The position numbers were made by a program, and so were the translations under genes. 64,000 nt of DNA from Henricia sp. BOLD:AAB3569 (lineage: Eukaryota > Echinodermata > Asteroidea > Spinulosida > Echinasteridae), in contig JBBELK010000975.1 of NCBI GenBank assembly GCA_037783545.1, positions 196,001-260,000 on the forward strand, given 5' to 3'. The notes under the pieces were generated by a model, which was given only the letters and a program-made list of their open reading frames with translations, was not told where the DNA came from and made no database searches. Positions within the stretch are counted from its first letter, which is position 1. Every line of letters starts with the position of its first letter. Positions 1,192 through 61,799 of this stretch are shown in pieces.

Positions 1192-1232
1192 GCACTGAGA
1201 TCTGGCACCCTGACTGCAGTAAAAACCTTAAG
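1192..1232 (+). CDS. ABLIM: abLIM exon: end of last LIM domain
   Basis: Acceptor ctttaaaacag, donor gtaagg. Read in phase 1 it gives TEIWHPDCSKNLK, the WHPxC end of the fourth LIM zinc finger, whose Cys/Asp ligate the second zinc. It ends on a codon boundary. The rest of the LIM domains must lie upstream of the window. Confidence 0.85.
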
Positions 1233-4200
1233 GTAAGGATTCACTGCATGGTGAGGATCCTATTTATTTTGAAGGTCTGATTTATGACATTTTTAAATTT
1301 CCACAGTACAAACTCAAAACGTTGAACCTGTTCCCTTGTTGACTGAGCTAATGAGATTTCACTGCCATATGTCTTTGTTTTGGATTAGTTTGTGCAAAAG
1401 TTCATTCTAAAGTGATTATTACTTTGGCAAACGGGTACTGAAGCTCTGTAATTTTGTTTGATACTTTATAGATATTAGACTTATCGCCTTTGAAGATGAA
1501 GGAGAATGCTTTGCTCTATGATTACAATCGCAATCGACTGGTAAGTCGGCTCAAATTTCATTTCAATTAGTTACACAGATACATGCTCAGAACAGTGAAC
1601 TGCTGTTTGTTGTACTATTTTGCGCAAAGTGCTGCCCTATAGCAGAAGAGCAGTCAAATGCGTAGCTTTACATGGTTGAGGGCAGCTGTATCTTTGAACA
1701 TTTTTTGTTGGCCGCTTCAGATGCCCCCAGAGTGCGTTCCTTATCTCCCAGTAGTAGCTGATTCCACTCTCCATCCGTTACTCCAACGTGCTCCTCAAAC
1801 AGTCTCGGTCCACAAAGTCCTAACTTTGCTCATAGTTACCATTATATACCTCATGCGTAGATTCCAGTCATCTGATTGGTTAAAAGTGGGGGCATTGAAT
1901 CGGCTAGACCCGGCGCGTATGCCAACTGGTCAATAGTCTTTGCCATGCCCCGGGCATAGTCATTTAGCGGGTTCCGGATGCGCGCATTACATGTGTTAGC
2001 ATATAGCTAGTTGTGCACCAACTATGCAGCTGGGCATAGTCATTTAGCGGGTTCCGGCGCGCGCATTACATGTGTTAGCATAGCTATAGCTGTGCACCAA
2101 CTATGCAGCTGTGCGCTTCGCGTAAACATTCATCAGGACGGTAATGGCGGAATCTCGACGTCATTTTGTCGTCTGTCGTAGATGATGAAGTCCTTAAGAA
2201 AGTAAGAGAAGTGGCCTACAGTTAAAACTGTGTCAGGTGAAATGTGCTACTAAAGTGCCAGGTGATTATGCTACAAATGTTTGCTGTAAATATACAACTT
2301 TTCCGCCGTAGACCAGCTTCGGAAATCGAAACTCGAAGGACCACTGTCATGACTGTATGATGTACATGTATATCGTTACTTTTAACCAACCAGATGACAA
2401 AAATCTACACATTCGGTATATAAAACAAATATTGACTGCTGTTTATTCGGGTCATGGTTAAGATTATAGGCCCTCGGTGATCTCGAAGCCATGACTATGC
2501 CCCTCGGCTTCCGCCTCGGGGCATAGTCATGGCTTCGAGATCACCTTGGGCCTATAATCTTAACCATGCCCCTCATTGCAGTCAATACATGTATTTGTAT
2601 ACTATAACACCCCACATTTGTCATGTTTTGGTCGTTTTAGATGCCCCCAGAGCGTGTTCTCTTTCACCCAGTAGTAGCCGGTTCCACTTCCCGTCCGTCA
2701 CTCCAACACGCTCCTCAAAGCTCCTCAAACAGTCTCGGTCCAAAGAGTCCTAACTTTGCTCATAGTTACCACTATAACACCCCACATTTGTCATGTTTTG
2801 GTCGTTTCAGATGCCACCCAGAGCGCGTTCCCTATCTCCCAGTAGTAGCTGATTCCACTTCCCGTCCGTCCCTCCAACACCCTCCTCAAAGCTCCTCAAA
2901 CAGTCTCGGTCCAAAGAGTCCTAACTTTGCTCATAGTTACCACTATAACACCAAACATTTGTCATGTTTTGGTCGTTTCAGATGCCACCCAGAGCGCGTT
3001 CCCTATCTCCCAGTAGTAGCCGATTTCACTCCCCATCCGTCACTCCAACACGCTCCTCAAACAGCCTCAGTCCTCAGAGTCCTAACTTTGCTCATAGTTA
3101 CCGCTATTATTACACCCCACATTTGTCATGTTTTGGTCGTTTCAGATGCCACCCAGAGCGCGTTCCCTATCTCCCAGTAGTAGCTGATTCCACTTCCCGT
3201 CCGTCCCTCCAACACCCTCCTCAAAGCTCCTCAAACAGTCTCGGTCCAAAGAGTCCTAACTTTGCTCATAGTTACCGCTATTATTACACCCCACATTTGT
3301 CATGTTTTGGTCGTTTCAGATGCCACCCAGAGCGCGTTCCCTATCACCCAGTAGTAGCCGATTTCACTCTCCATCCGTCACTCCAACACGCTCCTCAAAC
3401 AGCCTCAGTCCTCAGAGTCCTGACTTTGCTCATAGTTACCGCTATTATTACACCCCACATTTGTCATGTTTTGGTCGTTTCAGATGCCACCCAGAGCGCG
3501 TTCCCTATCACCCAGTAGTAGCCGATTTCACTCTCCATCCGTCACTCCAACACGCTCCTCAAACAGCCTCAGTCCTCAGAGTCCTAACTTTGCTCATAGT
3601 TACCGCTATTATTACACCCCACATTTGTCATGTTTTGGTCGTTTCAGATGCCACCCAGAGCGCGTTCCCTATCACCCAGTAGTAGCCGATTTCACTCTCC
3701 ATCCGTCACTCCAACACGCTCCTCAAACAGCCTCAGTCCTCAGAGTCCTGACTTTGCTCATAGTTACCGCTATTATTACACCCCACATTTGTCATGTTTT
3801 GGTCGTTTCAGATGCCACCCAGAGCGCGTTCCCTATCACCCAGTAGTAGCTGATTCCACTTCCCGTCCGTCCCTCCAACACCCTCCTCAAAGCTCCTCAA
3901 ACAGTCTCGGTCCAAAGAGTCCTAACTTTGCTCATAGTTACCACTATAACACCCCACATTTGTCATGTTTTGGTCGTTTCAGATGCCACCTAGAGCGTGT
4001 TCCCTATCACCCAGTAGTAGCCGATTTCACTCTCCATCCGTCACTCCAACACGCTCCTCAAACAGCCTCAGTCCTCAGAGTCCTGACTTTGCTCATAGTT
4101 ACCGCTATTATTACACCCCACATTTGTCATGTTTTGGTCGCTTCAGATGCCCCCAGAGTGCGTTCCTTATCTCCCAGTAGTAGCCGATTCCACTTCCCGT

Positions 4201-7200
4201 CCGTCCCTCCAACACGCTCCTCAAAGCTCCTCAAACGGTCTCGGTCCACAAAGTCCTGACTTTGCTCATAGTTACCGCTATTATTACACCCCACATTTGT
4301 CATGTTTTGGTCGTTTCAGATGCCACCCAGAGCGCGTTCCCTATCACCCAGTAGTAGCCGATTTCACTTCCCGTCCGTCCCTCCAACACGCTCCTCAAAA
4401 GGCCTCAGTCCTCAGAGTCCTGACTTTGCTCATAGTTACCGCTATTATTACACCAAACATTTGTCATGTTTTGGTCGTTTCAGATGCCACCCAGAGCGCG
4501 TTCCCTATCACCCAGTAGTAGCCGATTTCACTCCCCATCCGTCACTCCAACACGCTCCTCAAACAGCCTCAGTCCTCAGAGTCCTGACTTTGCTCATAGT
4601 TACCGCTATTATTACACCAAACATTTGTCATGTTTTGGTCGTTTCAGATGCCACCCAGAGCGCGTTCCCTATCACCCAGTAGTAGCCGATTCCACTTCCC
4701 GTCCGTCCCTCCAACACGCTCCTCAAACGGTCTCGGTCCACAAAGTCCTGACTTTGCTCATAGTTACCGCTATTATTACACCAAACATTTGTCATGTTTT
4801 GGTCGTTTCAGATGCCACCCAGAGCGCGTTCCCTATCACCCAGTAGTAGCCGATTTCACTTCCCGTCCGTCCCTCCAACACGCTCCTCAAAAGGCCTCAG
4901 TCCTCAGAGTCCTGACTTTGCTCATAGTTACCGCTATTATTACACCAAACATTTGTCATGTTTTGGTCGTTTCAGATGCCACCCAGAGCGCGTTCCCTAT
5001 CACCCAGTAGTAGCCGATTTCACTCCCCATCCGTCACTCCAACACGCTCCTCAAACAGCCTCAGTCCTCAGAGTCCTGACTTTGCTCATAGTTACCGCTA
5101 TTATTACACCAAACATTTGTCATGTTTTGGTCGCTTCAGATGCCCCCAGAGTGCGTTCCTTATCACCCAGTAGTAGCCGATTCCACTTCCCGTCCGTCCC
5201 TCCAACACGCTCCTCAAAGCTCCTCAAACAGCCTCAGTCCTCAGAGTCCTGACTTTGCTCATAGTTACCGCTATTATTACACCCCACATTTGTCATGTTT
5301 TGGTCGTTTCAGATGCCACCCAGAGCGCGTTCCCTATCTCCCAGTAGTAGCCGATTTCACTCCCCATCCGTCACTCCAACACGCTCCTCAAACAGCCTCA
5401 GTCCTCAGAGTCCTGACTTTGCTCATAGTTACCGCTATTATTACACCAAACATTTGTCATGTTTTGGTCGTTTCAGATGCCACCCAGAGCGCGTTCCCTA
5501 TCTCCCAGTAGTAGCCGATTTCACTCCCCATCCGTCACTCCAACACGCTCCTCAAACAGCCTCAGTCCTCAGAGTCCTAACTTTGCTCATAGTTACCGCT
5601 ATTATTACACCCCACATTTGTCATGTTTTGGTCGTTTCAGATGCCACCCAGAGCGCGTTCCCTATCTCCCAGTAGTAGCTGATTCCACTTCCCGTCCGTC
5701 CCTCCAACACCCTCCTCAAAGCTCCTCAAACAGTCTCGGTCCAAAGAGTCCTAACTTTGCTCATAGTTACCGCTATTATTACACCCCACATTTGTCATGT
5801 TTTGGTCGTTTCAGATGCCACCCAGAGCGCGTTCCCTATCACCCAGTAGTAGCCGATTTCACTCTCCATCCGTCACTCCAACACGCTCCTCAAACAGCCT
5901 CAGTCCTCAGAGTCCTGACTTTGCTCATAGTTACCGCTATTATTACACCCCACATTTGTCATGTTTTGGTCGTTTCAGATGCCACCCAGAGCGCGTTCCC
6001 TATCACCCAGTAGTAGCTGATTCCACTTCCCGTCCGTCCCTCCAACACCCTCCTCAAAGCTCCTCAAACAGTCTCGGTCCAAAGAGTCCTAACTTTGCTC
6101 ATAGTTACCACTATAACACCCCACATTTGTCATGTTTTGGTCGTTTCAGATGCCACCTAGAGCGTGTTCCCTATCACCCAGTAGTAGCCGATTTCACTCT
6201 CCATCCGTCACTCCAACACGCTCCTCAAACAGCCTCAGTCCTCAGAGTCCTGACTTTGCTCATAGTTACCGCTATTATTACACCCCACATTTGTCATGTT
6301 TTGGTCGCTTCAGATGCCCCCAGAGTGCGTTCCTTATCTCCCAGTAGTAGCCGATTCCACTTCCCGTCCGTCCCTCCAACACGCTCCTCAAAGCTCCTCA
6401 AACGGTCTCGGTCCACAAAGTCCTGACTTTGCTCATAGTTACCGCTATTATTACACCCCACATTTGTCATGTTTTGGTCGTTTCAGATGCCACCCAGAGC
6501 GCGTTCCCTATCACCCAGTAGTAGCCGATTTCACTTCCCGTCCGTCCCTCCAACACGCTCCTCAAAAGGCCTCAGTCCTCAGAGTCCTGACTTTGCTCAT
6601 AGTTACCGCTATTATTACACCAAACATTTGTCATGTTTTGGTCGTTTCAGATGCCACCCAGAGCGCGTTCCCTATCACCCAGTAGTAGCCGATTTCACTC
6701 CCCATCCGTCACTCCAACACGCTCCTCAAACAGCCTCAGTCCTCAGAGTCCTGACTTTGCTCATAGTTACCGCTATTATTACACCAAACATTTGTCATGT
6801 TTTGGTCGTTTCAGATGCCACCCAGAGCGCGTTCCCTATCACCCAGTAGTAGCCGATTCCACTTCCCGTCCGTCCCTCCAACACGCTCCTCAAAGCTCCT
6901 CAAACGGTCTCGGTCCACAAAGTCCTGACTTTGCTCATAGTTACCGCTATTATTACACCAAACATTTGTCATGTTTTGGTCGTTTCAGATGCCACCCAGA
7001 GCGCGTTCCCTATCACCCAGTAGTAGCCGATTTCACTTCCCGTCCGTCCCTCCAACACGCTCCTCAAAAGGCCTCAGTCCTCAGAGTCCTGACTTTGCTC
7101 ATAGTTACCGCTATTATTACACCAAACATTTGTCATGTTTTGGTCGTTTCAGATGCCACCCAGAGCGCGTTCCCTATCTCCCAGTAGTAGCCGATTTCAC

Positions 7201-10200
7201 TCCCCATCCGTCACTCCAACACGCTCCTCAAACAGCCTCAGTCCTCAGAGTCCTGACTTTGCTCATAGTTACCGCTATTATTACACCAAACATTTGTCAT
7301 GTTTTGGTCGTTTCAGATGCCACCCAGAGCGCGTTCCCTATCTCCCAGTAGTAGCTGATTCCACTTCCCGTCCGTCCCTCCAACACGCTCCTCAAAGCTC
7401 CTCAAACAGCCTCAGTCCTCAGAGTCCTGACTTTGCTCATAGTTACCGCTATTATTACACCCCACATTTGTCATGTTTTGGTCGTTTCAGATGCCACCCA
7501 GAGCGCGTTCCCTATCTCCCAGTAGTAGCCGATTTCACTCCCCATCCGTCACTCCAACACGCTCCTCAAACAGCCTCAGTCCTCAGAGTCCTGACTTTGC
7601 TCATAGTTACCGCTATTATTACACCAAACATTTGTCATGTTTTGGTCGTTTCAGATGCCACCCAGAGCGCGTTCCCTATCACCCAGTAGTAGCCGATTTC
7701 ACTCTCCATCCGTCACTCCAACACGCTCCTCAAACAGCCTCAGTCCTCAGAGTCCTGACTTTGCTCATAGTTACCTGTCGCCTGGAGCCTTGGATACTAA
7801 GATGATGTACCCAAAATTGATTCCGAGTGCGAATGAGCCAGCAACAAGCCCAAACTTTCACAGGCCAGGTATGTACGGGTATTCTTAATTGTCATAATCT
7901 CGGGAAAATGTATGATTTTTGTTTTAAATGCTACGGTATGTCAAAACTCAGCCATAATAGCAGAGAAAGATACATGAACAAACAACTTGGAAAGGTATAC
8001 TAACAGAATCTTGATGGACTTGTGGCGGACCTCGCGACAGACTCGTGACAGACTCGCGACAGACTCGCGACAGACTCGTGTCTTAACTAAAATATTTAAT
8101 TCTTTTGTCTTTCTTGTGATTTATGTTCAATTGCAATTTGTTTAACATTGGCTCCAAAGTCATTTCATTTAGAATAGCAAGTGATTTATCTAATTCCTTT
8201 TCTGTGATTTTATTTGACTTTTCATGCTCTGGCTTTTCACACATTCACAACTACTTCAGAATATGTAAACAAAGGTAAATATAATTTCTTCTATTCATCA
8301 CCATTACACTTTTATTGTTTGCAATCTGTTGGATAGTATTTTTTTTCTTTGTCTTCAGTACCATAACATTAATATGCAGGGGCGGATCCAGGAATTTTTC
8401 CAGGAGGGGGTTTTGCCACCAGGGAGGGGTTTTGGCCATCATATTTTTATATCAGCTTGTTTCGGACAGGCGGACACGCAAAAAATGCATTACATTATAT
8501 TTTTTGGTGTCGGAGCAGGGGGGGGGGGGGTTGACCCCCAAAACCCCCCCTCTGGATCTGCGCCTGATATGACACAGTAGTACCTTACCTTACCTTCAGT
8601 ACCATAACATTAACATTTTTGTTTAATTACAAAACTCAAGCATGACTACCTAAAGTGGCAAATTGTCAGTGCGGTTGTCGAACACAAAGGCTCAAAATGT
8701 TGCCCATGGAAACTATTATTTCAATTAAATTCAAATTTTGATTTAACTTGTTCCTGAAGAATATTAACATTTCTCTTGTTGCTTGGTATAAATGTAGTTC
8801 TAAATGTTAGCTGGGCTATTAAATATGCTTTTTATGATGTTACAAGGCCATGTATGTTTATGTTGATGATGTCTTTTGTAAACTGATCAACATTTCACCA
8901 TTGAGCTCCACAGTCTAATGTTAATTGTAAATAAAGATGTAATAAATGTTGATGTTGTTTCAGGAGAAAGCCACAGCTACAAAAGCCCGCCACGGGTCAC
9001 ACCACAACAAGTCAAGAAATGGTCACATGGTAAGATATATGTAGTTTCATTAGAAGGTAGCACTTGTAAGATTAACCTAAAGTGAATTTCTACATGAGCT
9101 TTCACATTGTGATGTTGAAATCCACAAAATCTTATTCCATTAGACACCATGCACATCTCTAGATACTGCTGTTATCAATGGGAAAATATTAAGCCTGCTT
9201 CAGGCCACTTCTGTAACATTGCCGTGGAATTGCTGTTTTTGAAACTTTGTCGTATTTTCTACCACAGAGCGGTTCGGTCGTCCAAGGCCTAAAAGTGCCT
9301 TTGAAAGTTTGATGCCCAAACCCTAACCGGTTACCAATGGGAGAACATACATGTATCCATAGAAGGGAACATCGGCATTAGGTTCAGGCAACTCTTGTAA
9401 CATTGCCGTGAAATTGCACTTTAGCATGTTATTGTGTTTCAAACTTTGTTATATTTTCTACCGCAGGACGGTTCGGTCGTCCACGGCCTAAAAGTGCCTT
9501 TGAAAGCTTGATGCCCAAACCCTAACCGGTTACCAATGGGAGACATCGGCATTAAGTTCAGGCAACTCTTGTAACATTGCCGTGAAATTGCCCTTTAGCA
9601 TGTTATTGTGTTTCAAACTTTGTTATATTTTCTACCGCAGGACGGTTCGGTCGTCCACGGCCTAAAAGTGCCTTTGAAAGTTTGATGCCCAAACCTAAAC
9701 CCTGTAAGGATGAGGAACTGTCCAGCGATCTCGTCAAACAATCCAAGTTCCCTGCTGCCAAGAAACCGCCGCCCAACGAGCTTCCTAAGGTAGAGAGAGA
9801 TGACTGGCCTGGGCCTCCGTTTCCTCCGATTATTAAGCGATGGTGGAGTAAATCTGTTGGTGAGTGGAATTTGTCTTAGCCAGTTAAAAGAAAGACATGA
9901 CCAGTTGCCCTTTGTCAAAGGAGGCGGGTGTGGGGCAGGTGGACCAAACACCCCCTTGGAAAATAGCTGCTTTCCCTGTTTCTCTAATTGGCAAAAACAA
10001 TTAAAATATTTCTTATGGTGGATTACATAGCTGATATTGTGCACCTCTTGCCCCCCTCCCCCAGCATCGAAAACTGGTAACAGTGCTGAAAGACACACGT
10101 CTTGAAATGACACAAATCTTATATTTGACAGAAAGTTGGTCCAAACAATGTAATTTGCAAGATACATGTATTTTAAATACTGACCCTGTTGTAAAAAAAT

Positions 10201-13200
10201 AATCTCTTCAGTTCAGACTATCATTCTTTTACCATCACAAAAAAGTGTGTAATTCTGTTTTACGATATTTTTAAGTTCCGTATGCATGATTTAAATTCGT
10301 TTCAAAAAGCTGTGAGGAATTGATCTAAAACCCTTGTTTCTGATCGACACACCAGGGGACCTTGACTTGGACGCTCGGGAGCGACAAGAAGAAAAAGAAC
10401 TTAAACAAGAAGTTGAAAAGATGCCGTCTGCTCTCGGCAAAGAGATTCTGAAGGAAGAGTTGACCAAGGCCAAGCTGGATAACTTAGACCCTCGTAGCGC
10501 CTCCCGAACACCTTCAGCTAACAAGGAACCCCCAGTCACGCCAAGATATGCATCCTCTGCCAATGCTGGTACAGTATAGAGTAGTTTGACAATGTTTGCA
10601 AGCAAAGCTGGATAACCTAACATTGGTATAGGAATTAGGACGCATTGAACTCGTCATAACCTTTGTGAAATCGATCCCAGGTCTCAGTGGTTAGTTGATA
10701 ATTTGTACTATCTGGCGAGACCTGTCACGTGATTTAACTACATGACCAGGGACCGATTTCACAAAGCGCTAGGACGCGTCTTAGGAAAGGTTACTCTTAT
10801 TTTGGGACGTTGGTATGGGAATTAGGATGCATTGATCTTATGTGAAATTGATCCCTGGAACTCTGGTAAGTCTAATGCAACAATCTGAATCATATCATTT
10901 TTTTTTTTTAAATATCCCTTGTCCAGAACCAATTATTTGACTGCAGAATGAACCTTGCAGAATGAACCTTTCAGAATGAAGAAGCATGCCCAGAGGTCTC
11001 ATGCACATGTAGGATGATGTAGCACCATTCATACTAGTACAGTGTAGCTGAATGTTTGGCTACTTTTAGACACGTATAACTTCAATTTGATGGAAAATTT
11101 CTGTGCCTTCGATCTGTTTCATGTATGTGTCCACAGCACCACTTCGCTTGAGAGAACGAAGAAGCAAATGGCTTGAAGATTATCTCAGAGGTGACTTGAT
11201 ACATGCCTGTGTGCATTGCATGATGTTTGACATGCATGGACCTGAATTGCTGCATTGTGGAACATGTTGTGTTCAAAATGAATTAAATTGATACTAACAA
11301 GACAGTATGCAAGGTCTGAGTTGGTTAATGTCCAAAGCCGCTTTCGTCAGTACGTTTGAGGTCACTTAGTCACTCTCTCTGTTTGACAGAGTTTCAGCTT
11401 ATAAAACTCGCCTTGTTAGTATAAATGCAGTAGTTGTAATGGTGCCTCATTAAAACCAAACTCTGTTAGTGTTCTGTTTAAGTCACCCACAATCGGGCTT
11501 GTAGACTCTTTATCAAGTAAAAAATAAAGAGCTGTAAATGATTGTAGAATTTGCATATATCTTAATTGTTCCTCAACATTCCCAAGCACAATGATGATTT
11601 CATAAAGGAAATATCGCAATTGGTGTGCAAGTCTGGTGCCATTTTGACTAGAGTCCCCTGTGCAGAACATAAATATTTATTGCTGGTGTACGTATTTGCC
11701 CATTACATTGCACACCACAGTCATAGTGAGTATTGTCATACCTTCATTTTTGTGACTGTCACATCTCATTCAAGTTGTCAACATGGTCTTATCATTGTGA
11801 GTCGACACTCGTCGACACTCGTCAGAGTCACTTGTGGCTTTGCAACAGAGTTTTTGTTCAGCAAGTTACATGTAGGCTCAGATGTTCTATGCCGTCATTT
11901 CATCATAATTGCTGCTGCTTATTTTCATTTTTGACAAAACATCAACAGGTGTAACTTGTGACAAGGAGCTTTCATTTTATTATATCACCATCTGTATACT
12001 GTGTGTCAGCCGATCTGCTATATGTGCATCTTACAGACTTTCTGTGTAATTATTATACTTAAAATTTGATAGTTGATTTCAAACTCTGTTCACTTCATAA
12101 CAACACAGCACTAAGATGTTTCCATCATCATTTGTGGAGTTCTGAATGTCTTTTGAAGTGGAATTATTTGTAATACCTTTTGTGGCCGTGTTTGGTGATT
12201 GCCAAATAACCATGCTAATTTGGCTCATGATGGTATATGCAGCACGGGAAGAGTGTGTTGAGGTATAGGGGCGTTAGGGGGGAGTCCCTCTGCCACATAT
12301 CGTGCTGGGTATACATGATGGTACCTTCTAACCCTAACCCTTTTTGTGGCTGTGTTTGGTGATTGCCAAATAACCATGCTAATTTGGCTCATGATAGTAC
12401 CTTCAAAAGGGAAGAAAAGTGCAACATTTAGTCAAAGGAAATGAACGTTTGGTTAACATAACATTGCACGTTCCTGCTGGTAAGTCGATGAAGCATGTGA
12501 GCATGCTAACCTCTGTAGTATGATTATGACAAGTTCAACAATGATGATGAGTTATAAGTTTTGTTCTTGCCTGTTCTTGGCATTTTACAAATACTGTTAA
12601 AACATTCACACAACTACGAAAAGATTATTCACAGTTTTAATTTATCAAAGTCTGTCTTATTACAATTTGAGTCCCTCATTACAATTTATTGTTCTCACAT
12701 TGTCAGAGGAGAATTTTTAGACATGCGCAGTTAATTGTTTTAGAAATGTTGTAGACATTACTTCAACCATGCTTCTAGTCAAGTTTGCATATTCCCCTTA
12801 CACAAGTTGTACTAACCGGCTAATAAGTAATCAGTTTAACTTGTTTCCAAGAGTTTCATTGGTTTCTTAACTAGTTAGCCGTTGCCCAACATGTTTTTAA
12901 GATAATGTTGTTTGGAATTTAATGTCTGCACAACTGCAGACCTTGGACAAAACCCATGATCAATAGTAGTCTTGACTCATTGCAAACTTGTTCAAGTGTA
13001 TGCCAGCCATCTTGAGAACAAGCGCACTTCGTGCTAACCTTATCGCATCACTTAAAGACAGAGGCTCGTCAATGCACGATGAGCTAATTCGTGCCACGAA
13101 ATTCACCACACTCCATACCTTGCCCGAGCTCTTACAATCCCGGAGGGTGCAGGCGCGTCGTGTGTTTGTATGTGGGTCTTTCCATCAGTGCAAAGTGTCC

Positions 13201-16200
13201 ATGTAACTTGCTGATATCATTTTGTGAGCATTTGTCTTTGCACACTGCATGATGAATTTGTGAAATTGGAAGTTACGTTTTACTTCATCCCTTTTTTATT
13301 ACAGTTGGAGGAAGAATTAGTTCTACTTTACCAGCCAATATGCGCAATATGAACCTGGTGAGTACAGTAAACTGCATAGGGAACAGTAATTGATGAACAA
13401 TAATTAGCATGTATAAGAGAAAATATCTGCGAAGACTAAAGCCCGGTTCATTCTCCATGCAAAAGCAAATGCGAAATTGATGTCACAAGTTATCAACTTG
13501 CGTGAATGTTCATCACAAAATGTGTAATGTCAGATTTGCATTTGCATTTACTTTTGCGTGAAGTGTAAACCGGCTTTCAAGATGAAATTGGACTTTCTTC
13601 TACTGAGACAATGGTAAGATATTTGTGTTTGGTTTAATTTCACTTCTGTTTACTCTTTGGACTCTGAAAAAAACTTACCAAGACGGAGTCAAAAGAACTG
13701 ACTTGGATGTGAGGTGACACTTCAGTGATTTTGGCCATAAGGACATGTGGAATCAGTAAAAAGTGTTGGGGCAGTCTTCTTAGGTGGTATAGGGAGTTTA
13801 CAGGCAGGGCAACTTGGGGCAGCCAACAAATGACAGAAACGTTTTGGCCACGGCACTACATGTACTTCCAGCCTGATTTGTCTGGCTTATTGTTTAGAGT
13901 GAAGCTTACAGGAAAGCTAGTTCACAGCCGCTGGATTCTACCCTTTGACAATGCAACCAAACTATAAACTGACACTACACCATGTCTGATTTTCTTCGCT
14001 TATTGTTTAGAGTGAAGCTTACAGGAAAGCTAGTTCACTGCCAATGGATTCCAGAAGAGGCCCTCCCAGTTGGTTCAATGACGGTAAGAACATTTGAGAA
14101 AGAATGTTTACTTCATATAAATCTATACCTGTCAACATTTCCAGCCTAATTGAGCACCGATTGTGCCAGACACGTACTATGGGGAACAAGACAAAGATGG
14201 ACGCACCGTGATAAAGGTCTATATCAGTCCAGGATTCCAAGCCTCTCCCCCAAGCCCCTCCCTCTCCCCCATCACTCTATCTAAGACCCATACTCTAATC
14301 CTCCTTTAGGTCTGTCTGACGGCTACCAGAGTCCCGGAGGCTACTTGAGCCCCCCGGGCTATATGAGTCCAATCAGTCCAGGATTCCAAGCCTCTCCCCC
14401 AAGCCCCTCCCTCTCCCCCATCACTCTATCTAAGACCCATACTCTAATCCTCCTCTAGGTCTGTCTGACGGCTACCAGAGTCCCGGAGGCTACTTGAGAC
14501 CCCCGGGCTATATGAGTCCAATCAGTCCAGGATTCCAAGCCCCTCCCTCCCCCCATCACTCTATCTAAGACCCATACTCTAATTCTCCTCTAGGTCTGTC
14601 TGACGGCTACCAGAGTCCCGGAGGCTACTTGAGCCCCCCGGACTATATGAGTCCAGTCAGTCCAGGATTCCAAGCCCCTCCCTCTCCCCCATCACTCTAT
14701 CTAAGACCCATACTCTAATCCTCCTTTAGGTCTGTCTGACGGCTACCAGAGTCCCGGAGGCTACTTGAGCCCCCCGGGCTATATGAGTCCAGTCAGTCCA
14801 GGATTCCAAAGCCCAAATGGCTACGCTAGTGACGTTGACTTCTCAAGGACGGGATCGTCCGAGGACGAACTGCGCATGTTGAGGATCACAAGAGGGCGCT
14901 CTTTACCCAGCGTCGTCCAGCAAAAGGTAAAAGGCGCAACTGGTGCTGGAATAACTGTCAGTAAAAAGACCCAAGTAAGTTCCTAAATTCCTGTTTTATT
15001 GTAGCAGGGTGATGCATCATGGGAATATTGCCAAATCAGCACTTGTTTTCCTTTGTATGCATTTTGGTAAGATTTTTTTCATAAGCATTCCATTAAAGGT
15101 ACATGGAACAAATTCGTGCCATGAAATTCACCGCTCCATACTTTTCTATGGAGCGGTGAATTTTATGGCACGAATTTGTTCCTCGCGCATGCATTGACGA
15201 GCCTACCTCTTCGTCGCATTGCAGCTGTCAGGACGCTTATAACGTCGTCTGCTGCTGAACAGATCATACATGCCTTCATTTCATCTAGGCTTGACTTCTG
15301 TAATAGTTTACTCATGGGTCTTCCACAAAGTACACTAAAATGTCTCCAATCTGTACAGAATTCTGCCGCTCGATTACTCACACGCTCAAGGATTTCAGAT
15401 CACATAACTCCCATTCTGTTCAAACTTCATTGGCTACCCATTAGGTACAGGATTCAATTTAAAGTTGCATTGTTGACATTTAAAGCCCTTCATGGATATG
15501 CACCATCTTACATTCAAGACTTGCTACAAGTCCGCACAATGAGACCGAGTCTCAGGTCAACAGGTAACACGCTCTATGTCCCTAGAACCCGTCTGGTAAC
15601 CTATGGGGATAGGGCATTTTCTAGTTATGCACCCCGTCTTTGGAATTCTTTGCCAAATGAGCTGAGAGCCACACATGATATTTCTGTCTTTAAACGTCAT
15701 TTAAAGACATTTCTTTTTCACCAGGCTTTTCACAACAATTAGTGACTTTCTTTCTTGACCTGGCGCCTTTGAATGGCCTCCAGATATTGTGCACCTAATA
15801 AGTGCTTTGCTATTATTATTATTATTAATGTACAGTGTAAAGGTGTTTTTATTTAAATGCAGAAATATACCGAGCAACAAAAAAAAGGAAAATTTTCAGT
15901 TTAATCAAAATTTGAAAATGTCTTATTCACATAGCAGCTTCATTATGCAGGAGTGCATAAAACGTTTGAGCGCTAAAAATTCCCACTCTCAGATTGACTA
16001 CTTTTTTTCAATCAAAAAATGGAGAAATATTTTGCATTGCTTTTGTTGCTCGGCATCTAGCTTTTTGGGCTCCCACAGTAAACTGTCTTCAATTGAGTAT
16101 TAAACTAAGAGGTACATGTACTGAGCTTACTTGCACACTGGCTGGTTTTTATTACACATAGCCTTAATCGCACATGGGGCTAATGCCGTTTTTAACGGGT

Positions 16201-19200
16201 CTACTTCTGGCTGGAAAGCTGGCCTCCATTTAATTATGTCACATACATGTACCTTCCGTAGTACAACTTAGAGTTATAGTCTCTGGTTGAACAAAAATGG
16301 ACTTCAAATTCAATTTCTAACGAACTCCATTACCCAGGGGGCACCGGTAAAAAAAATGTGCAGACATCCACTATGGGGGGTAGGTCCTGCCGTTTTTAGA
16401 CCTATTTCAAGTCTGACTTCGATTATAATGTACGGGTTATGCATGGGGTACTTCCCATAATTGGTGAAGTATAAGCGATCTCAGACTTGAAATAAGTCTA
16501 AAAACAACAAAACCTACCCACCGTAATGGATCTCTGCAAATGTTCTTAACTGCATTACCTAATAATTAAAACCGAATATTGCAAACTGCTGTATAAACAT
16601 GTATGTAAGTTCAATGTTCACACAGTTGCAACATTTGACGAGTTGTGTGGTACAAAGCTACAAGCTACTAGGGCATGCACACTGGTATCTCTGAAGGATA
16701 ATTGTGTTTGATTAGCCTGTGCATCCCGCATGCTTGACACCAAGTCACTAACACGATGCCTGGTTTCTATTGACTCACTAACCTCATTTCCTCTCTTATA
16801 CTGACATGCATTGCTTGGTATCAGATGAAAAACTCCAAGGAAACGATTAATCTTTCTGCTAAAGAGAAGGGCAAGTCAATGTCCAACATTCCAGTGGTGA
16901 GTTTCATGCTTCGTGTACGTGTGGGTCTCGACGTTGAACAGACAATTTGCATAGATAGCTCAAAGAGCGACAGCCAAAAGGCATTTTAGTTTACCCATTT
17001 GTAACCTATGCTCTGACATTAACCGAGGCCAATGGCCTAATGCACTACTGAGTTGGCCCCTCAAGATATACACTTTCTGAGGCCAACTTGGCCAGCATGC
17101 CCTATCTATTTGAATTTCATGAGGATTGTATTAAATATCCAGTACACATTTGGAACAAAGTTGGCCATGGTGCCGCAGTTGATAACTCAGACAAAATCAA
17201 GGCTGGCATAATCTGCTACTTATTTACATAGCAGATAGAATGACGGCCAAAAGTCGTGTCAGTTTACCAATTTATAATCTACGGTTAGGAAGTACTCAAC
17301 ATCGACTGAAGATATGATGGGACAAAGATGATAAAATGTGTTGTAATGATCAAGGAGAGTTTTCAAGAAAACACTTAAAAATCCTTTTATACATTTTTAT
17401 AGAACACTTTTACAAAAAAAATGCATGTTGAGTGAATGTTTGGTGTCCAGGCTATCCAAAAATGTGAAAACCCAAAATCGATTTCAGCTTCATTTCCCAC
17501 AATTAAATTAATTTGCCATTTTGGGAACATTCCTCATTTTGCTGTGGAAGATCACATTAACTTATTTTCAGTGCTTACTGTTTGCTCAACATCGGCTATT
17601 CAAGTAGTTGATAGTTTCCAGCTATATTTTGCTTGTCACCAAGGAAGCAACTTCTGCAAATGTAGATGTCCATAATAAGATGCCTAATTTCTGTACTTTC
17701 TCATCACAGAAAACTAATAATGGTTGCATGCTGTATATCATGTGTTAACCACTTTAGACTGTAGCATCATGTTCTGAATAACTGACATGTCTTTTATGTT
17801 AACATTGGTTTATCAAATGGTTCTTTCTCACAGTAATTCACTCTTTCTTTATGATCGCTTCAACTAACTCTTTTCACGCTCTTTCTGCCTACTTCTCATT
17901 GGCTGATTACAGAAACCATCGAGAGAGGTCAGAGTTCGCATGCCATGTAGTAAGAACACTAGAAGCACAAAAAATATAAAACAATGCCATTATAGATTCT
18001 GCACCATTGCTCTGCTAGCCAGCACGCCTTTTCTTTGAGCACAGTCGCCAGAAATAGCTCCCATGAACATATTGTTGTTGTCACATGTAATAGCCCTAGA
18101 TGATAAATGTTTCACAATGCTTGTCTTGGATTCTGTGAAGTGGGTAAAAGTAATTTTTGATCCACATTTTGTAAATATGGCTGGTGTCACAAGTTATGTT
18201 GTGTGCAAATTAGAATTCGTTCCATTGATTAATTTCAAAAATTGAGGGAATATATATATGCAGATGACTTTTGTTTTGCCCATTGTTTTAGCACAAATAC
18301 GTCTAAAGTAACCCGTAAAAAGACTGTACTGTTCATTTGATTCAAGTGATCATGTATTAGATGATTCTTTCTGTAAAAAATGAATGTTAGAAGTTCATGT
18401 ATAAACATGTTGTTTGTAGACATCAAAAACTGTTTTGTGCCGCATAGTGGTCATGACTTGTATATTTTGTGCAGGTCTAGCAGTCGTATCCATTGTTTTG
18501 GGAAAATGTGCTGCATGCCTATCCGTCCCTTCATTGTTTTTTAATTTTGCAAGATATATGCATTACTTTGCATTTTTGCTAGATATATGCTTCAGTAAAA
18601 TAGTGCTGCTTCATTAGATGAGGCCAAGGCATGAGTGTTTGCTGTGCTTGCCAAATAGCTGCAGTGAGAACGTTCATTTGTGTTGTGAATTCACTTATTT
18701 GGTTGATATGATATAGCACATTGTTTGCAGTGTGGTTGTGTGGTTTAAATTGGCCATTTAGTAATCGCGGGCAAAGTAACAAGTCCGTGACAAGTCTCGC
18801 ACAAGTCAAGTAACAAGAAGCAAAGGATGAACATGCACAAAAGAATGCCTTTGTTGGAGTTCATTTGAATAGCTTGTGACTTGAATTAAGACCCAGGGAC
18901 TTAACAAGTGGTGGACTTGTAAAGGTTTGTGAGGACTTGTGATGGACTTGCCTACAACCCTGCAGCTATGGTTAGGCCGTATAATTCTATATAAACTTGT
19001 TCAAAGTGGCAGCTTACATGCAACATTTAAACAACAAAACATGCAGTTCAATGAATGGCCGCTACTGATGGCAGATATACAGAGAACTAGTGATCTACAT
19101 GTACAAGACTTCTGAAACTAACTTGCATACATTAATTTCTTTAGCCCTTTTCTTCCTAATGAATTTTGCATAAATACAAGAGACATAATAATGATATATT

Positions 19201-20111
19201 GCTGTCATTATTTAGAGGAAAAGTGCTCTGCTGTTATATTGAACAAAAGTCTTACATCCGGGTTTGAAGAAATAACTTGAACTGTAATGAATGGTTTTGA
19301 TTTCAGATCTACCCATTGGCGACCCTGTTAACAACAAACTACAGGCTACCCAAGGATGTTGACAGAAATAACTTGGAGGTGAGTAGAAAAAGCAGCTGAC
19401 AATCAAACTTTAGCTGGTTACAAACTTGGACCTAAAACATCGATATTCTAGTCCTGATGTTCAAGATCAATTTTGGGTGGATTCTTTGTGTTCAGTAGCG
19501 CAATACGAATGACATACCAGCATTCTTTCAGCAGTAAAGGTATTGTGAAATATTGTTGTTGATATTCACTGTTGCACATGCCTCGCATAACATAGTAACA
19601 TTGGGTTATTGCTATAGAGAACCAAAGTGCAGATGTCATCTCTTGACAGCTACGTCTTTCTATAAATTAGGGGTCAATTTTCCGTGTTACATGTACATCT
19701 GACATCTTGGTTTTGTAAATTCAGGACACATTCTTTAAATACTTTCCATCTCAAAGAGTGAGTACATAAAGTACAATTCATACAAAATGGTTTAAAAGCT
19801 ATGACACATGTCAGGTGTAACGAGGGACACTAAATGTCACACTTTTGACCCTTAATTTATAGAAAGACCCAGCTGTTTAAACTGATCACTGTGATCATCA
19901 TTCGTCTGTGTTCTTGCAGTAGCTTCTTTATCCAATAGCTCAATGTTTAGAGTTTGTTCACAATGTGCATGTTTTGTATTTTTCATCATTCTCACAGCTT
20001 CATCTGTCTCCTGAAGACTTTTTCCGAGCGTTTCAGATGCCTTATGAAGATTACTTCATGTTGCCAAGATGGCGCCAAGTGGAACTCAAAAAGCTGGCTT
20101 TGTTTTTTTGA
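1192..20111 (+). CDS. ABLIM: abLIM-family actin-binding LIM protein (3' part of gene, spliced)
   Basis: Actin-binding LIM protein: N-terminal LIM zinc fingers (mostly outside the window), a Ser/Pro-rich linker and a C-terminal villin headpiece that binds F-actin. Exons I assign: 1192-1232, 1472-1540, 7655-7868, 8964-9029, 9641-9859, 10356-10568, 11137-11190, 13305-13357, 14011-14083, 14730-14974, 16825-16896, 17913-17927, 19307-19378, 19725-19757 (optional-looking), 19998-20111. All junctions are GT-AG and phases agree, giving about 516 codons in the window. Family landmarks in order are the end of a LIM domain (WHPDC), ILD...YD, FHRPG, SKFPAA followed by DDWPGPP, an acidic/basic helix with GKEILKEEL, LDPRSASRTPS, KGKSMSNIP and the headpiece. 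These match the order in vertebrate ABLIM1/2/3, so I read it as the single-copy ancestral type. The 5' end lies upstream of the window. Four exons are preceded by tandem partial copies (see separate entries). A possible poly(A) signal AATAAA is at 20559; another, better placed by composition, is near 25030. Confidence 0.93.
1472..1540 (+). CDS. ABLIM: abLIM exon: linker start (ILD...LYDYNR)
   Basis: Acceptor actttatag, donor gtaagtcgg, 69 nt, phase 0 to 0. It encodes ILDLSPLKMKEN then ALLYDYNRNRL, which resembles the EILDY...KAIYD.R stretch following LIM4 in vertebrate abLIM. An alternative acceptor 7 nt downstream would break phase with the previous exon, so I chose 1472. Confidence 0.8.
1721..1834 (+). 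repeat. isolated upstream copy of the abLIM repeated exon segment
   Basis: Acceptor-like gccgcttcag followed by a 114-nt segment homologous to the repeated exon part downstream, then gttacc and the first bases of the unit spacer. It carries the one-base deletion (atgccccc) also seen at 2641, 4147, 5140 and 6314. It is separated from the array by about 750 bp of unrelated sequence that appears inserted in its spacer. It is probably the 32nd copy rather than a used exon. Confidence 0.7.
1849..2598. mobile_element. insertion splitting the first abLIM repeat unit, with terminal hairpin
   Basis: The spacer of the first repeat copy (gttaccattatata) stops here and resumes as ctataacacccc near 2600, so about 750 bp looks inserted. 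Inside are an 80-bp direct tandem duplication (1952-2031 and 2032-2111, each beginning gggcatagtcatttagcggg) and a long inverted repeat at 2453-2568. The word catagtcat and its reverse complement recur through the element. No coding sequence is seen. A non-autonomous foldback-type DNA element is likely; its exact ends are uncertain. Confidence 0.55.
2453..2568. repeat. long imperfect hairpin
   Basis: Arms of about 50 nt are near-perfect reverse complements: catggttaagattatagg at the left and cctataatcttaaccatg at the right. The centre is gcccctcggcttccgcctcg. It sits about 30 bp from the first unit of the abLIM exon array. Confidence 0.85.
2590..7772 (+). repeat. 31-copy tandem array of 3' splice site plus exon segment (abLIM)
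   Basis: Each unit is a spacer ending in ttttggtcgtttcag, then a 115-nt segment starting ATGCCACCC, then gttaccgctattattacacc and the next spacer. Unit starts (the ATG): 2641, 2811, 2982, 3146, 3320, 3484, 3648, 3812, 3983, 4147, 4320, 4484, 4648, 4812, 4976, 5140, 5313, 5477, 5641, 5815, 5979, 6150, 6314, 6487, 6651, 6815, 6989, 7153, 7317, 7491, 7655. Period is 164 bp; variants arise from a 10-bp insertion (gctcctcaaa), a 1-bp deletion at the start and a 3-bp spacer deletion. In the exon frame 24 copies are open over the whole segment. Seven (2811, 3146, 3812, 5641, 5979, 6815, 7317) have a stop, usually AGC TGA. Only the copy at 7655 runs on into the unique exon. Long open frames across the array in other frames are by-products of homogeneous repeats and are not proteins. 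Confidence 0.95.
7655..7868 (+). CDS. ABLIM: abLIM exon: Ser/Pro linker, final full copy of the repeat exon
   Basis: Acceptor ttttggtcgtttcag, donor gtatgt, 214 nt, phase 0 to 1. It starts MPPRARSLSPSSS, continues through the repeated segment to FAHS, then reads on as YLSPGALDTK and ends NFHRP(G). The Ser/Pro/Thr-rich run ending FHRPG corresponds to the linker of vertebrate abLIM before its FHRPG motif. It is the last of the repeat copies and the only one with a good donor. Confidence 0.88.
8028..8075. repeat. short 12-bp tandem repeat
   Basis: Four to five copies of a 12-mer like gacagactcgcg inside the intron after the repeat exon. A degenerate relative (acttgtgac/aagtccgtgac words) occurs at 18770-18955. 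Confidence 0.75.
8375..8570. mobile_element. short inverted-repeat element, GGGGCGGATCC family
   Basis: Left end caggggcggatccagg and right end ctggatctgcgcctga are imperfect terminal inverted repeats about 190 bp apart, with a G-tract inside. A second, opposite-orientation member lies at 22612-22951 and shares the internal agcttgtt..acagg word. The host sequence cttcagtaccataacatta occurs just left (about 8353) and again just right (about 8596), which may be a duplicated target or local duplication. Confidence 0.65.
8964..9029 (+). CDS. ABLIM: abLIM exon: linker (GESHSYKSPPR)
   Basis: Acceptor ttgtttcag, donor gtaaga, 66 nt, phase 1 to 1. It encodes ESHSYKSPPRVTP then QQVKKWSH, basic and Ser/Pro-rich. 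I see no recognised motif; placement rests on splice sites and phase. Confidence 0.75.
9240..9640 (+). repeat. two partial upstream copies of the next abLIM exon and its acceptor
   Basis: Copies start at 9268 and 9466, each after tctaccrcag, and repeat the first about 65 nt of the functional exon at 9641 (CGGTTCGGTCGTCC, then AAAAGTGCCTTTGAAAG). Both run into a stop (MPKP then TAA) and intron-like sequence with no donor. Unit lengths are about 198 and 175 bp. The 3'-most copy is the real exon. Confidence 0.88.
9641..9859 (+). CDS. ABLIM: abLIM exon: SKFPAA / WPGPP linker motif
   Basis: Acceptor tctaccgcag, donor gtgagt, 219 nt, phase 1 to 1. It encodes RFGRPRPKSAFES...LSSDLVKQSKFPAAKK then LPKVERDDWPGPPFPP. 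The SSD.I..SKFPAA and D.WPGPP motifs are hallmarks of the abLIM linker. The exon contains an internal cryptic donor-like CCCTGTAAGG near its 5' third, absent from the two partial copies upstream. Confidence 0.93.
10356..10568 (+). CDS. ABLIM: abLIM exon: acidic helix and LDPRSASRTPS
   Basis: Acceptor gacacaccag, donor gtacag, 213 nt, phase 1 to 1. It encodes DLDLDARERQEEKELKQEVE, GKEILKEELTKAK and LDPRSASRTPSANKEPP. The charged coiled helix with LILKEE-like core and the RSASRTPS.N.EPP..PRY string are conserved in abLIM proteins. Confidence 0.93.
10650..10865. repeat. dispersed repeat with gtgaaatcgatccc ends
   Basis: Contains facing copies of ttgtgaaatcgatccc and ccagggaccgatttcacaaag plus repeated ggaattaggaygcattga. 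It looks like a short element or nested pair of the kind common in marine invertebrate introns. No coding potential. Confidence 0.45.
11137..11190 (+). CDS. ABLIM: abLIM exon: short charged linker
   Basis: Acceptor tgtgtccacag, donor gtgact, 54 nt, phase 1 to 1. It encodes PLRLRERRSKWLEDYLRG, a basic/acidic helix. Placement rests on splice sites and phase with both neighbours. Confidence 0.75.
12175..12404. repeat. intronic tandem duplication
   Basis: About 60 bp (tttgtggccgtgtttggtga... to ggctcatgatggta) is repeated at 12342-12404 with two differences; the unit is about 167 bp. Intronic. Confidence 0.8.
13010..13150 (-). repeat. inverted copy of the repeat flanking the LINE remnant
   Basis: Bases 13062-13118 (aggctcgtcaatgcac, attcgtgccacgaaattc) are the reverse complement of 15145-15204. 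This shows a dispersed repeat family rather than coding sequence. Confidence 0.7.
13305..13357 (+). CDS. ABLIM: abLIM exon: short linker
   Basis: Acceptor ttttttattacag, donor gtgagt, 53 nt, phase 1 to 0. It encodes GGRISSTLPANMRNMNL. No motif recognised; supported by both splice sites and by being open in the only frame that fits its neighbours. Confidence 0.75.
13870..13935 (+). repeat. partial upstream copy of the exon at 14011
   Basis: The sequence ttattgtttagAGTGAAGC through aagctagttcac and a diverging tail matches the acceptor and first about 45 nt of the real exon, about 110 bp downstream. No donor follows. It is the second-smallest of the acceptor-plus-exon duplications in this gene. 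Confidence 0.85.
14011..14083 (+). CDS. ABLIM: abLIM exon: SEAYRKASSLPMD
   Basis: Acceptor ttattgtttag, donor gtaaga, 73 nt, phase 0 to 1. It encodes SEAYRKASSLPMDSRRGPPS then WFNDG. Ser/Pro-rich linker. Confidence 0.78.
14222..14729 (+). repeat. three partial upstream copies of the GYQSPGGY exon and its acceptor
   Basis: Units of 149, 135 and 136 bp. Each holds a branch-point-like tctaat, acceptor ctcctytag and about 85 nt of exon (starts 14310, 14459, 14594), then breaks off at ggattccaag into CT-rich intron. The copy at 14730 is the only one that continues into unique exon and a donor. Confidence 0.92.
14730..14974 (+). CDS. ABLIM: abLIM exon: GYQSPGGYLSPPGY linker
   Basis: Acceptor atcctcctttag, donor gtaagt, 245 nt, phase 1 to 0. 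It encodes LSDGYQSPGGYLSPPGYMSP, then FQSPNGYASDVDF, RTGSSEDELRMLR and GRSLPSVVQQK, ending SKKTQ. An internal alternative donor after QQK (gtaaaa, 14926) would shorten the exon in frame by 48 nt. The Gly-Tyr-Ser-Pro repeats give a low-complexity linker. Confidence 0.85.
15105..15182. repeat. near-perfect hairpin
   Basis: ggaacaaattcgtgcca at the left pairs with tggcacgaatttgttcc at the right. Arms are about 36 nt with a 6-nt loop (cttttc). It sits at the 5' edge of the LINE remnant and is homologous to the repeat at 13062-13118. Confidence 0.9.
15200..15830 (+). mobile_element. 5'-truncated non-LTR retrotransposon (CR1/L2-like)
   Basis: A 180-codon open stretch ends at 15742 and encodes the region after the reverse transcriptase catalytic core of CR1/L2-type LINEs: SRLDFCNSLLMGLPQ, LQSVQNSAARLLTRS, HITPILFKLHWLPI, FKVALLTFKALHGYAPSYI, YGDRAFSSYAPRLWNSLP and VFKRHLKTFLF. 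It is followed within 90 bp by (ATT)n, the usual tail. The catalytic part is absent, so it is a dead insertion inside an abLIM intron. Confidence 0.88.
16357..16541. mobile_element. foldback element
   Basis: ggtaggt...gtttttagacctatttcaagtctga is mirrored by tcagacttgaaataagtc...acctacc, with outer arms tgcagacatcca and tggatctctgca. Probably a MITE. Intronic. Confidence 0.75.
16825..16896 (+). CDS. ABLIM: abLIM exon: KGKSMSNIP before headpiece
   Basis: Acceptor cttggtatcag, donor gtgagt, 72 nt, phase 0 to 0. It encodes MKNSKETINLSAKEK then GKSMSNIPV. The SM.N(I/M) string sits just before the headpiece in abLIM proteins. Confidence 0.82.
17913..17927 (+). CDS. ABLIM: candidate 15-nt microexon (KPSRE) before headpiece
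   Basis: Between acceptor ttggctgattacag and donor gtcaga lie exactly five codons, KPSRE, phase 0 to 0, joining NIPV to IYPLAT. Vertebrate abLIM has a Lys directly before the headpiece (KIYPY / KIFPY). Skipping it also keeps frame, so it may be alternatively used. Supported by splice sites and phase only. Confidence 0.55.
18765..18960. repeat. degenerate acttgtgac repeat
   Basis: Irregular repeats of aagtccgtgac, cttgtgac, ggacttgt words in both orientations, similar to 8015-8085. No coding sequence. Confidence 0.4.
19307..19378 (+). CDS. ABLIM: abLIM exon: N-terminal half of villin headpiece
   Basis: Acceptor ttgatttcag, donor gtgagt, 24 codons, phase 0 to 0. It encodes IYPLATLLTTNYRLPKDVDR then NNLE, matching the headpiece N-terminal subdomain (YPYEML...LP..VDR..LE). 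Confidence 0.93.
19725..19757 (+). CDS. ABLIM: candidate 33-nt cassette exon inside the headpiece
   Basis: Acceptor ttttgtaaattcag and donor gtgagt flank 11 codons, DTFFKYFPSQR, phase 0 to 0. Without it the protein reads NNLE-LHLSPEDFF, the normal spacing of the family. With it, eleven residues separate the N- and C-terminal headpiece subdomains. Both forms keep frame. Confidence 0.5.
19998..20111 (+). CDS. ABLIM: abLIM last exon: C-terminal headpiece subdomain and stop
   Basis: Acceptor cattctcacag; ends at TGA. It encodes LHLSPEDFFRAFQMPYEDYF, MLPRWRQVELKK and LALFF. Compared with villin headpiece it keeps the two core Phe, the Trp cap (PxW), the KK pair and a terminal Phe. It has Tyr for the third core Phe, Arg for the Lys after Trp, and one extra C-terminal Phe. 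Confidence 0.95.
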   Translation, partial: LHLSPEDFFRAFQMPYEDYFMLPRWRQVELKKLALFF

Positions 20112-20705
20112 CACTCAACTTGTTTTGTTTTGGTAAGTAAATAATAACAATGTTTAATTTGGAATTAAACATTTCCTGACAGTCCCAATCATCCAACACC
20201 GAGGGATCATCAGTTTTCACTATTATCCCTCAAACCATTTTGTATTTGGTTTACTCTACCTCAGAAATATTCTGTCGGGCAGCCGTGGTATTTCATGCGT
20301 ATTTCCCTCCAGTTCTTCCTCAGTTAATATCGCAAAGTAAGCACCACCAAATGTCACTTTGATTTGTGCTATAGTAGACTGGAACAACTGTACTCACCAC
20401 TGATCTCCACGAGTACACACACACATAAAGTGCAATCGCGTTGGTATATTTAAAATACAGCCATACTGGGACAAATCTAAGGCTAAACCCAAGTGTGTGA
20501 TAATACCCCTTGGTTTTTGCACATTACATGTATACATGTGCGCAAGATGCATGGAAATAATAAAAACAACACACAGTTAAGTTGCTGGAATGGACCAATG
20601 AAATACTGCGGCTGTCTGGTGAATATTCATGAGGCATAGTAGTCATGCTTACCACTAAATCATTTGGTATTTATATCCCTTGTAGCTATGCTGCCACAAG
20701 TTTGC

Positions 20706-21269: not shown

Positions 21270-21975
21270 CTCAATGGTGATTAGGCACCATACCAAAATT
21301 TAGTTTTTGGTAACTTTGCTTAGTTGCGCATCCATTTAGCACCAAGAGAAAAGTTGGGTTCTTGGGGGAAACATGACTAGGTATACCACTGTGCCTCATA
21401 GCTCAGCTGGTAGAGCATCTGCCCAGTGTGTCAGAGGTCTTGGGGAAAACCTGAGGGAGTATACCACTGTGCCTCATAGCTCAGCCGGTAGTGCATCCGC
21501 CTGTTGTCAGAGGTCTTGAGGAAAACCTGAGGGAGTATACCACTGTGCCTCATAGCTCAGTCCGTAGTGCATCCGCCTGTTGTCAGAGGTCTTGAGAGAA
21601 ACCTAAGGGAGCATATCACTGTGCCTCATAGATCAGCATCTGCCTGGTGTGTTATATGTCTTGGGGAAACCTGAGGAAGTATACCACTGTGTCTCATAGC
21701 TCAGCTGTAGAGCATCTGCCCGGTGTGTCGGAGGTCTTGGGGAAAACCTGAGGGAGTATACCACTGTGCCTCATAGCTCAGCTGGTAGAGAATCTGCCCG
21801 GTGTGTCAGAGGTCTTGGGGAAAACCTGAGGGAGTATACCACTGCGCCTCATAGCTCAGCTGGTAGAGCATCTGCCTGGTGTGTCAGAAGTCTCTGGTTC
21901 GAATCCTGATGAGGACCGTATGATTTTTCTCTCATCCCATGTTGAGATAATACTTGTAATAATAATAAAAAGTGA
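21270..21975 (+). repeat. seven tandem tRNA-like heads ending in a SINE tail
   Basis: A 77-bp unit, tataccactgtgcctcatag then ctcagctggtagagcatctg, starts near 21382, 21459, 21536, 21612, 21680, 21757 and 21835. Only the last has box B (ggttcgaatcc) and the aataataataaaa tail. The others are replaced after the anticodon-arm region by gaggtcttggggaaaacctg. The sequence ggtgattaggcaccat at the left edge is the SINE border also seen at 30880-30895, 31060 and 46325. Confidence 0.85.
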
Positions 21976-43640: not shown

Positions 43641-43689
43641 GGTGATTAGCAAACTAGCAGGTTATCGAGGATCTTGTCGGTGTTCGTAG

Positions 43690-51988: not shown

Positions 51989-52608
51989 TACCGAGATACC
52001 GTATCTCGGAAACACGGTTTACCGAGTTACCGTATCTCGGAAACACGTATTACCGAGATACCGTATCTCGGAAACACGGTTTACCGAGATACCGTATCTC
52101 GGAAACACGTACTACCGAGATACCGTATCTCGGAAACACGGTTTACCGAGATACCGTATCTCGGAAACACGTATTACTGAGATACCGTATCTCGGAAACA
52201 CGTACTACCGAGATACCGTATCTCGGAAACACGGTTTACCGAGTTACCGTATCTCGGAAACACGTATTACCGAGATACCGTATCTCGGAAACACGGTTTA
52301 CCGAGATACCGTATCTCGGAAACACGTACTACCGAGATACCGTATCTCGGAAACACGTACTACCGAGATACCGTATCTCGGAAACACGGTTTACCGAGAT
52401 ACCGTATCTCGGAAACACGGTTTACCGAGATACCGTATCTCGGAAACACGGTTTACCGAGATACCGTATCTCGGAAACACGTATTACTGAGATACCGTAT
52501 CTCGGAAACACGTACTACCGAGATACCGTATCTCGGAAACACGGTTTACCGAGATACCGTATCTCGGAAACACGGTTTACCGAGTTACAGTATCTTGGAA
52601 ACACGTAT
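51989..52608. repeat. 31-bp palindromic satellite, 20 units in perfect register
   Basis: Unit taccgagataccgtatctcg plus gaaacacgNNN. Each contains a 19-nt perfect palindrome (arms ccgagatac / gtatctcgg, centre c). Unit 20 starts at 52578, exactly 19 x 31 from unit 1, so there is no indel across the array. The variable triplet is gtt, tat or tac (as ggtt, gtat, gtac). The order tat, tac (with tactgag), gtt at units 6-8 recurs at 16-18, showing higher-order duplication. Long open frames here are a side effect of the repeat. Confidence 0.97.
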
Positions 52609-61774: not shown

Positions 61775-61799
61775 TTGAAGAAATTAGGTAGAAGGGCAG

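Follow-up and report, generated by a model that had tools for sequence, protein, structure and literature searches.

A tandemly repeated 3' splice site with its exon start in an abLIM gene, most likely from a sea star

Why should a gene carry the 3' splice site and the beginning of one and the same exon more than thirty times in a row, and is any copy but the last in use? This question is raised by exon 3 of an abLIM (actin-binding LIM) gene in a 64,000-nucleotide stretch of contig JBBELK010000975.1 (positions 196,001 to 260,000, forward strand; referred to below as the window, whose own numbering is used). A first-pass annotation of this DNA had reported 31 tandem copies of the acceptor and exon start and favoured mutually exclusive exons, listing neutral satellite growth as an alternative. 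The latter holds up: the array is likely a minisatellite of the mirage type, grown by unequal exchange, in which only the last acceptor is used. Mirages have been described in lancelets as tandem copies of intron-exon boundaries, in Adh3, the globin genes BflGb6 and BflGb9, troponin C and PGBD5 (PMC3087553, PMC3902484).

The exon 3 array and its host gene

The features on which the argument rests are the following (borders between exon and intron, or between repeat and flank, are marked by a slash).

2601-7775, + strand: array of 31 units, the last being the start of the real exon (unit comparison, Tandem Repeats Finder)
1721-1840, + strand: unit 0, a diverged copy of the acceptor and the exon 3 start
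1841-2600, no strand, borders approximate: insert between unit 0 and the array; it contains a 60-nt palindrome (2449-2572) and, at 1842-1887 and 2378-2423, a pair of inverted arms of 46 nt
7655-7868, + strand: complete exon 3, phase 0 to 1, donor CAG/GTATGT, with an orthologous peptide in the proteins P0010, P0011, P0012 and P0020
8260-8274, + strand: 15-nt microexon EYVNK, phase 1 to 1, ag/AATATGTAAACAAAG/gtaaat, between exon 3 and the exon at 8964
1192-20113, + strand: 3' part of abLIM, 13 exons modelled (GT-AG borders, consistent phases, Pfam, homology)
Exons 1-7 of this model: 1192-1232, 1472-1540, 7655-7868, 8964-9029, 9641-9859, 10356-10568, 11137-11190
Exons 8-13: 13305-13357, 14011-14083, 14730-14974 or 14730-14926, 16825-16896, 19307-19378, 19998-20113

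The array, known from one haplotype, consists of 31 contiguous copies of the acceptor followed by ATGCC, with exon starts from 2641 to 7655, confirming the earlier count, and to these is added the diverged 32nd copy, unit 0, which is separated from them by an insert of roughly 750 bp containing a long palindrome. Unit 0 is the oldest-looking copy and the insert is perhaps a small DNA transposon. A unit of 164 bp, as given in the first-pass annotation, is indeed the commonest start-to-start spacing (19 of 30 intervals), the other intervals measuring 174 (four), 171 (three), 173 (three) and 170 bp (one). Each unit takes in the last 40-43 nt of the intron and the first 121 nt of exon 3, the latter part being extended to 131 nt by a 10-nt insertion and measuring 130 nt in four copies, and the acceptor is present in every copy as had been stated. 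The units thus span the intron-exon boundary together with its splice signal, which is what defines a mirage. Tandem Repeats Finder gave the array scores of 7840 and 7942, and 25-mers occurring at least 10 times fall in kilobase bins 2-7, with a single one in bin 1, and also in the satellite of the 51-52 kb region.

The exonic part of the unit had been placed at 115 nt, ending at CATA in front of a proposed donor gttacc. The last copy reads CATAGTTACC/TGTCGCC and the others CATAGTTACC/GCTATT or CATAGTTACC/ACTATA, and since GTTACC is common to the array and to the last, complete exon, the break of the duplication must lie after GTTACC; the duplicated exonic part is therefore 121 nt and the proposed donor is coding sequence. 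Only the last copy was found to run on into the full exon 3, as observed before; any tandem duplication that breaks within an exon has this geometry.

The modelled protein ends in a villin headpiece, and the combination of anchor region and headpiece that marks the abLIM family was recovered with both Pfam models (VHP and AbLIM_anchor) above cut-off, while the LIM domains are encoded upstream of the window except for the end of the last one. A protein search, in which 8000 candidates were scored and the best 120 of 419 matches considered, gave sea star actin-binding LIM proteins as the closest among the matches listed (Patiria miniata 81% and Asterias amurensis 76% identity over the whole query), the next relative listed after the sea stars being a brittle star protein with 52% identity. 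By these similarities the gene codes for abLIM and the window most likely derives from a sea star. A lancelet origin, which the described range of mirages might suggest, was rejected on the same grounds; the distant matches of a receptor frame in the window (see below) carry no weight in either direction. The phases of the exons upstream and downstream fit the copies as had been claimed, but the exon at 8964 is not the next one, as the microexon intervenes; its peptide EYVNK matches DYVNK in Patiria and EYVNK in Asterias (proteins P0010 and P0012). For exon 10 the donor is probably the one after 14926 rather than after 14974, because in the Patiria protein QQK runs straight into MKN.

Splice sites and coding potential of the copies

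Splice sites were scored with matrices built on consensus percentages. The acceptor scores 6.37 in 27 of the 32 copies, equal to the real exon 3 acceptor. The proposed donor CATA/GTTACC scores -2.35, while the 14 donors accepted as real (both alternatives of exon 10 included) range from 2.68 to 11.42. A score at least as good is reached by 55% of the 1302 GTs in positions 1-20200, in agreement with the earlier remark that it is a poor donor. When the upstream copies of all four acceptor arrays in this gene (exons 3, 5, 9 and 10, the last three described below) were considered, no donor-like GT (score of at least 6) was found before the next copy in 36 of 37 cases, the only one being CAG/GTGATT at 2261, which follows unit 0 and lies inside the insert. 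At the level of the weakest real donor (at least 2.68) a GT precedes the next copy in five of the 37, and read-through from the upstream acceptors to the real donor meets a stop in all 37. The exon 3 donor is located 214 nt from the start of the last copy, 378 nt from that of the preceding copy and 5228 nt from that of the first.

Where introns are long, an exon is recognised as a pair of acceptor and donor. We infer that the upstream copies are ignored because they offer good acceptors but, in 36 of 37 cases, nothing donor-like ahead of the copy that follows, and that the last acceptor alone is used because only the last copy has a donor close by. The array probably arose from a short tandem duplication that broke once in the intron and once in the following exon and so copied the exon 3 acceptor and start; unequal exchange and conversion would then have raised the number to about 32 copies, and the upstream copies, not being recognised as exons, would stay in the intron and leave the protein unchanged. 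The array is probably without function.

The same acceptors could also act as decoys, competing with the last copy so that its splicing is slowed or reduced, or giving transcripts with stops, in which case copy number would tune the output of abLIM. The 31 upstream acceptors, with scores like that of the real one, suit this idea, and the stop in every read-through is what unproductive splicing would need, but over a long non-coding read-through stops will also occur by chance. An array-specific RNA fold was not seen, one 164-nt unit folding no better than shuffled sequences (z = 0.46). As for precedents, an intronic minisatellite in C. elegans has been statistically linked to multiple splicing decisions (PMC4039745), whereas for the lancelet mirages regular splicing is reported or inferred by the authors to be undisturbed (PMC3087553, PMC3902484), and a regulatory role by competition seems to us quite unlikely.

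Regarding coding potential, the frame of the last copy is kept throughout in 20 of the 31 copies and is shifted and then restored in four (units 1, 10, 16 and 23), and in-frame stops occur in seven (units 2, 4, 8, 19, 21, 26 and 29), the number noted earlier. Ten of the 20 frame-keeping copies, the last one included, encode the same peptide. This exon 3 peptide is present once in each of the four sea star proteins read (P0010, P0011, P0012 and P0020), which would fit undisturbed splicing should those animals carry the array as well. Among the eight sequences read we noticed no longer protein in which a peptide is repeated, and a search with residues 300-600 of P0010 gave 18 matches and no additional sea star.

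Turnover of the units and what it says about the alternatives

A comparison of 30 units (units 0 and 1 left out) showed 21 variable columns out of 131 in the exon part and 5 out of 43 in the spacer, with a mean divergence of 0.057 and 0.040, respectively. The exon columns vary at least as much as those of the spacer, and the exon part is thus not the more conserved one. Among the 31 copies the exon part is represented by 15 alleles, in mixed order and in more than one length class, and two exact blocks are repeated within the array, one of 1150 nt (at 3578 and 5745) and one of 575 nt (at 2948 and 5443). Of the 19 copies equal in length to the last one, units 12, 15 and 25 match it with 99.4% identity. 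Homogenisation and multi-unit blocks of this kind indicate concerted turnover, a feature which the array shares with the lancelet mirages. The blocks and the mixed alleles suggest that the array grew by exchange of several units at a time, or that they are partly due to a fault in assembly.

Should the array have been inflated in assembly, for example by joined haplotypes or by repeats collapsed and re-expanded, exact blocks of 1150 and 575 nt could result, and one lancelet mirage was aberrantly assembled in a draft genome (PMC3087553). The number and mixed order of the alleles, occurring in more than one length class, argue against such an origin, as do the well over ten copies that remain when one long block is taken away and the three smaller arrays of the same kind in the gene, and we consider an artefact very unlikely.

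Some observations nevertheless weigh against a minisatellite in which the last acceptor alone is used. With a fair donor located 541 nt downstream, unit 0 could form an exon containing a stop. The 20 frame-keeping copies show 8 synonymous changes out of 15 against an expectation of 4.5 (P = 0.046, the events being linked), and the ratio of nonsynonymous to synonymous polymorphism (pN/pS) is 0.30 over eight alleles; some copies may be in coding use. The synonymous excess can be explained by exchange with the constrained last copy, and the constraint on the copies is ambiguous.

That the copies end at CATA and are joined to 8260 or 8964 as mutually exclusive exons, for which the phases of 24 of the 31 copies (20 keeping and four restoring the frame) and the mild synonymous excess would speak, is extremely improbable, since each variant in such a cluster has a usable donor of its own and a diverged open peptide, whereas here the donor would be a weak GT inside the duplicated coding segment, stops interrupt seven copies, half of the frame-keeping copies encode one peptide, and that peptide occurs once per sea star protein.

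Smaller arrays, known relatives and other features of the window

The same kind of duplication was found at three further exons of the gene, which had escaped the first-pass annotation.

9199-9859, + strand: exon 5 with three copies of the acceptor and about 58 nt of exon start (exon starts 9268, 9467 and 9641)
13873-14083, + strand: exon 9 with two copies of the acceptor and about 40 nt of exon start (exon starts 13898 and 14011)
14223-14974, + strand: exon 10 with four copies of the acceptor and about 85 nt of exon start (exon starts 14310, 14459, 14594 and 14730)

Two of the exon 5 copies have a splice-site score of 8.65 each, and the exon 10 array includes an additional 20-nt remnant at 14224-14243. 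Donor-side duplications were not found when the exons other than exon 3 were compared by BLAST together with 100 nt on each side, and the exon 3 donor (7868) is located beyond the end of the array (7775), thus outside the duplicated segment. Among six repeats of at least 60 nt in the gene (exons 3, 5, 9 and 10 and those at 1952 and 12171), hand-picked after the pattern had been seen and with shorter ones omitted, four cover an acceptor and none a donor. Random placement brings four or more onto an acceptor with P ~0.001, calculated with the 65-nt repeat at 12171 given a spacing of 164 and with the microexon start one base off. This is a hint of an acceptor bias among the repeats of abLIM. It is conceivable, if rather unlikely, that a process of the lineage tied to transcription or splicing has repeatedly and with preference duplicated 3' splice sites, that mirages are a deuterostome-wide mutational source of splice sites and that the abLIM array is a bank of acceptors of variable length.

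The lancelet mirages are known with units of 10-72 bp in Adh3, with an intron end and exon start of 150-160 bp in BflGb6, present as 6 and 3 units in two haplotypes (PMC3087553, PMC3902484), with 157 bp in BflGb9, and with 60 and 108 bp in PGBD5, where one assembly has up to 7 units (PMC3902484). The abLIM array resembles them in its tandem boundary copies with splice signals, but differs in its host, which is most likely a sea star and has its nearest proteins in sea stars, in its 31-32 copies as against 6 and 3 in BflGb6 and up to 7 in PGBD5, and in that four exons of one gene are affected at their acceptors only, the lancelet mirages including donors. No echinoderm mirage was seen among the matches listed from the open-licence literature, judged by title and opening of the abstract, and the echinoderm host and the four arrays in one gene appear to be new. 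The lancelet repeat class is hereby extended to a likely echinoderm, with far more units than the lancelet counts given above and with four separate events in one gene. The idea that tandem duplication has hot spots at 3' splice sites thereby becomes open to testing, and exon definition is put to a natural test by 31 superfluous acceptors, similar in quality to the real one and upstream of it. Gene prediction, too, can be misled by arrays of this type.

The human interferon-induced gene 6-16 (IFI6) contains a minisatellite of repeated splice donors, so that in both genes a splice site beside a coding exon is repeated, in IFI6 on the donor side and with a much shorter unit. Clusters of mutually exclusive exons of the Dscam type likewise contain many tandem exon-like copies with acceptors, whereas the array described here is without donors and complete alternative exons and encodes mostly the same peptide. 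Intron gain by tandem duplication, of which there is reportedly a case in potato, also brings copies of splice sites, but here a donor-acceptor pair for a new intron is missing. New introns between the copies were considered and rejected, given the lack of donors and spacers (46-49 nt by the earlier count) shorter than any intron of the abLIM model, the shortest of which is 239 nt; the earlier view that the spacers are too short for introns is in line with this. In the published model of such intron gain it is a partial exon duplication that brings the new splice-site copies (PMC3087553).

Elsewhere in the window, seven tandem copies (~78 nt) of a tRNA-like 5' half were found at 21360-21918, the last of which extends into a full tRNA-like element (21847-21914; Rfam tRNA, 39.5 bits). 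The geometry is that of the exon arrays because only the last copy continues. A second tRNA-like match is located at 33197-33258 (Rfam tRNA, 41.6 bits) and was not called by ARAGORN. Open frames at 15125-15742 and 61310-61783 resemble remnants of reverse transcriptase by eye, with no Pfam match at E 0.001, and minisatellites are situated at 51989-52605 (31 nt x 20) and 53137-53739 (53 nt x 11). On the minus strand two long uninterrupted frames at 42435-43661 and 47274-49028 encode rhodopsin-type G protein-coupled receptors (Pfam 7tm_1), the former having distant relatives only, with 9 matches at 22-34% identity.

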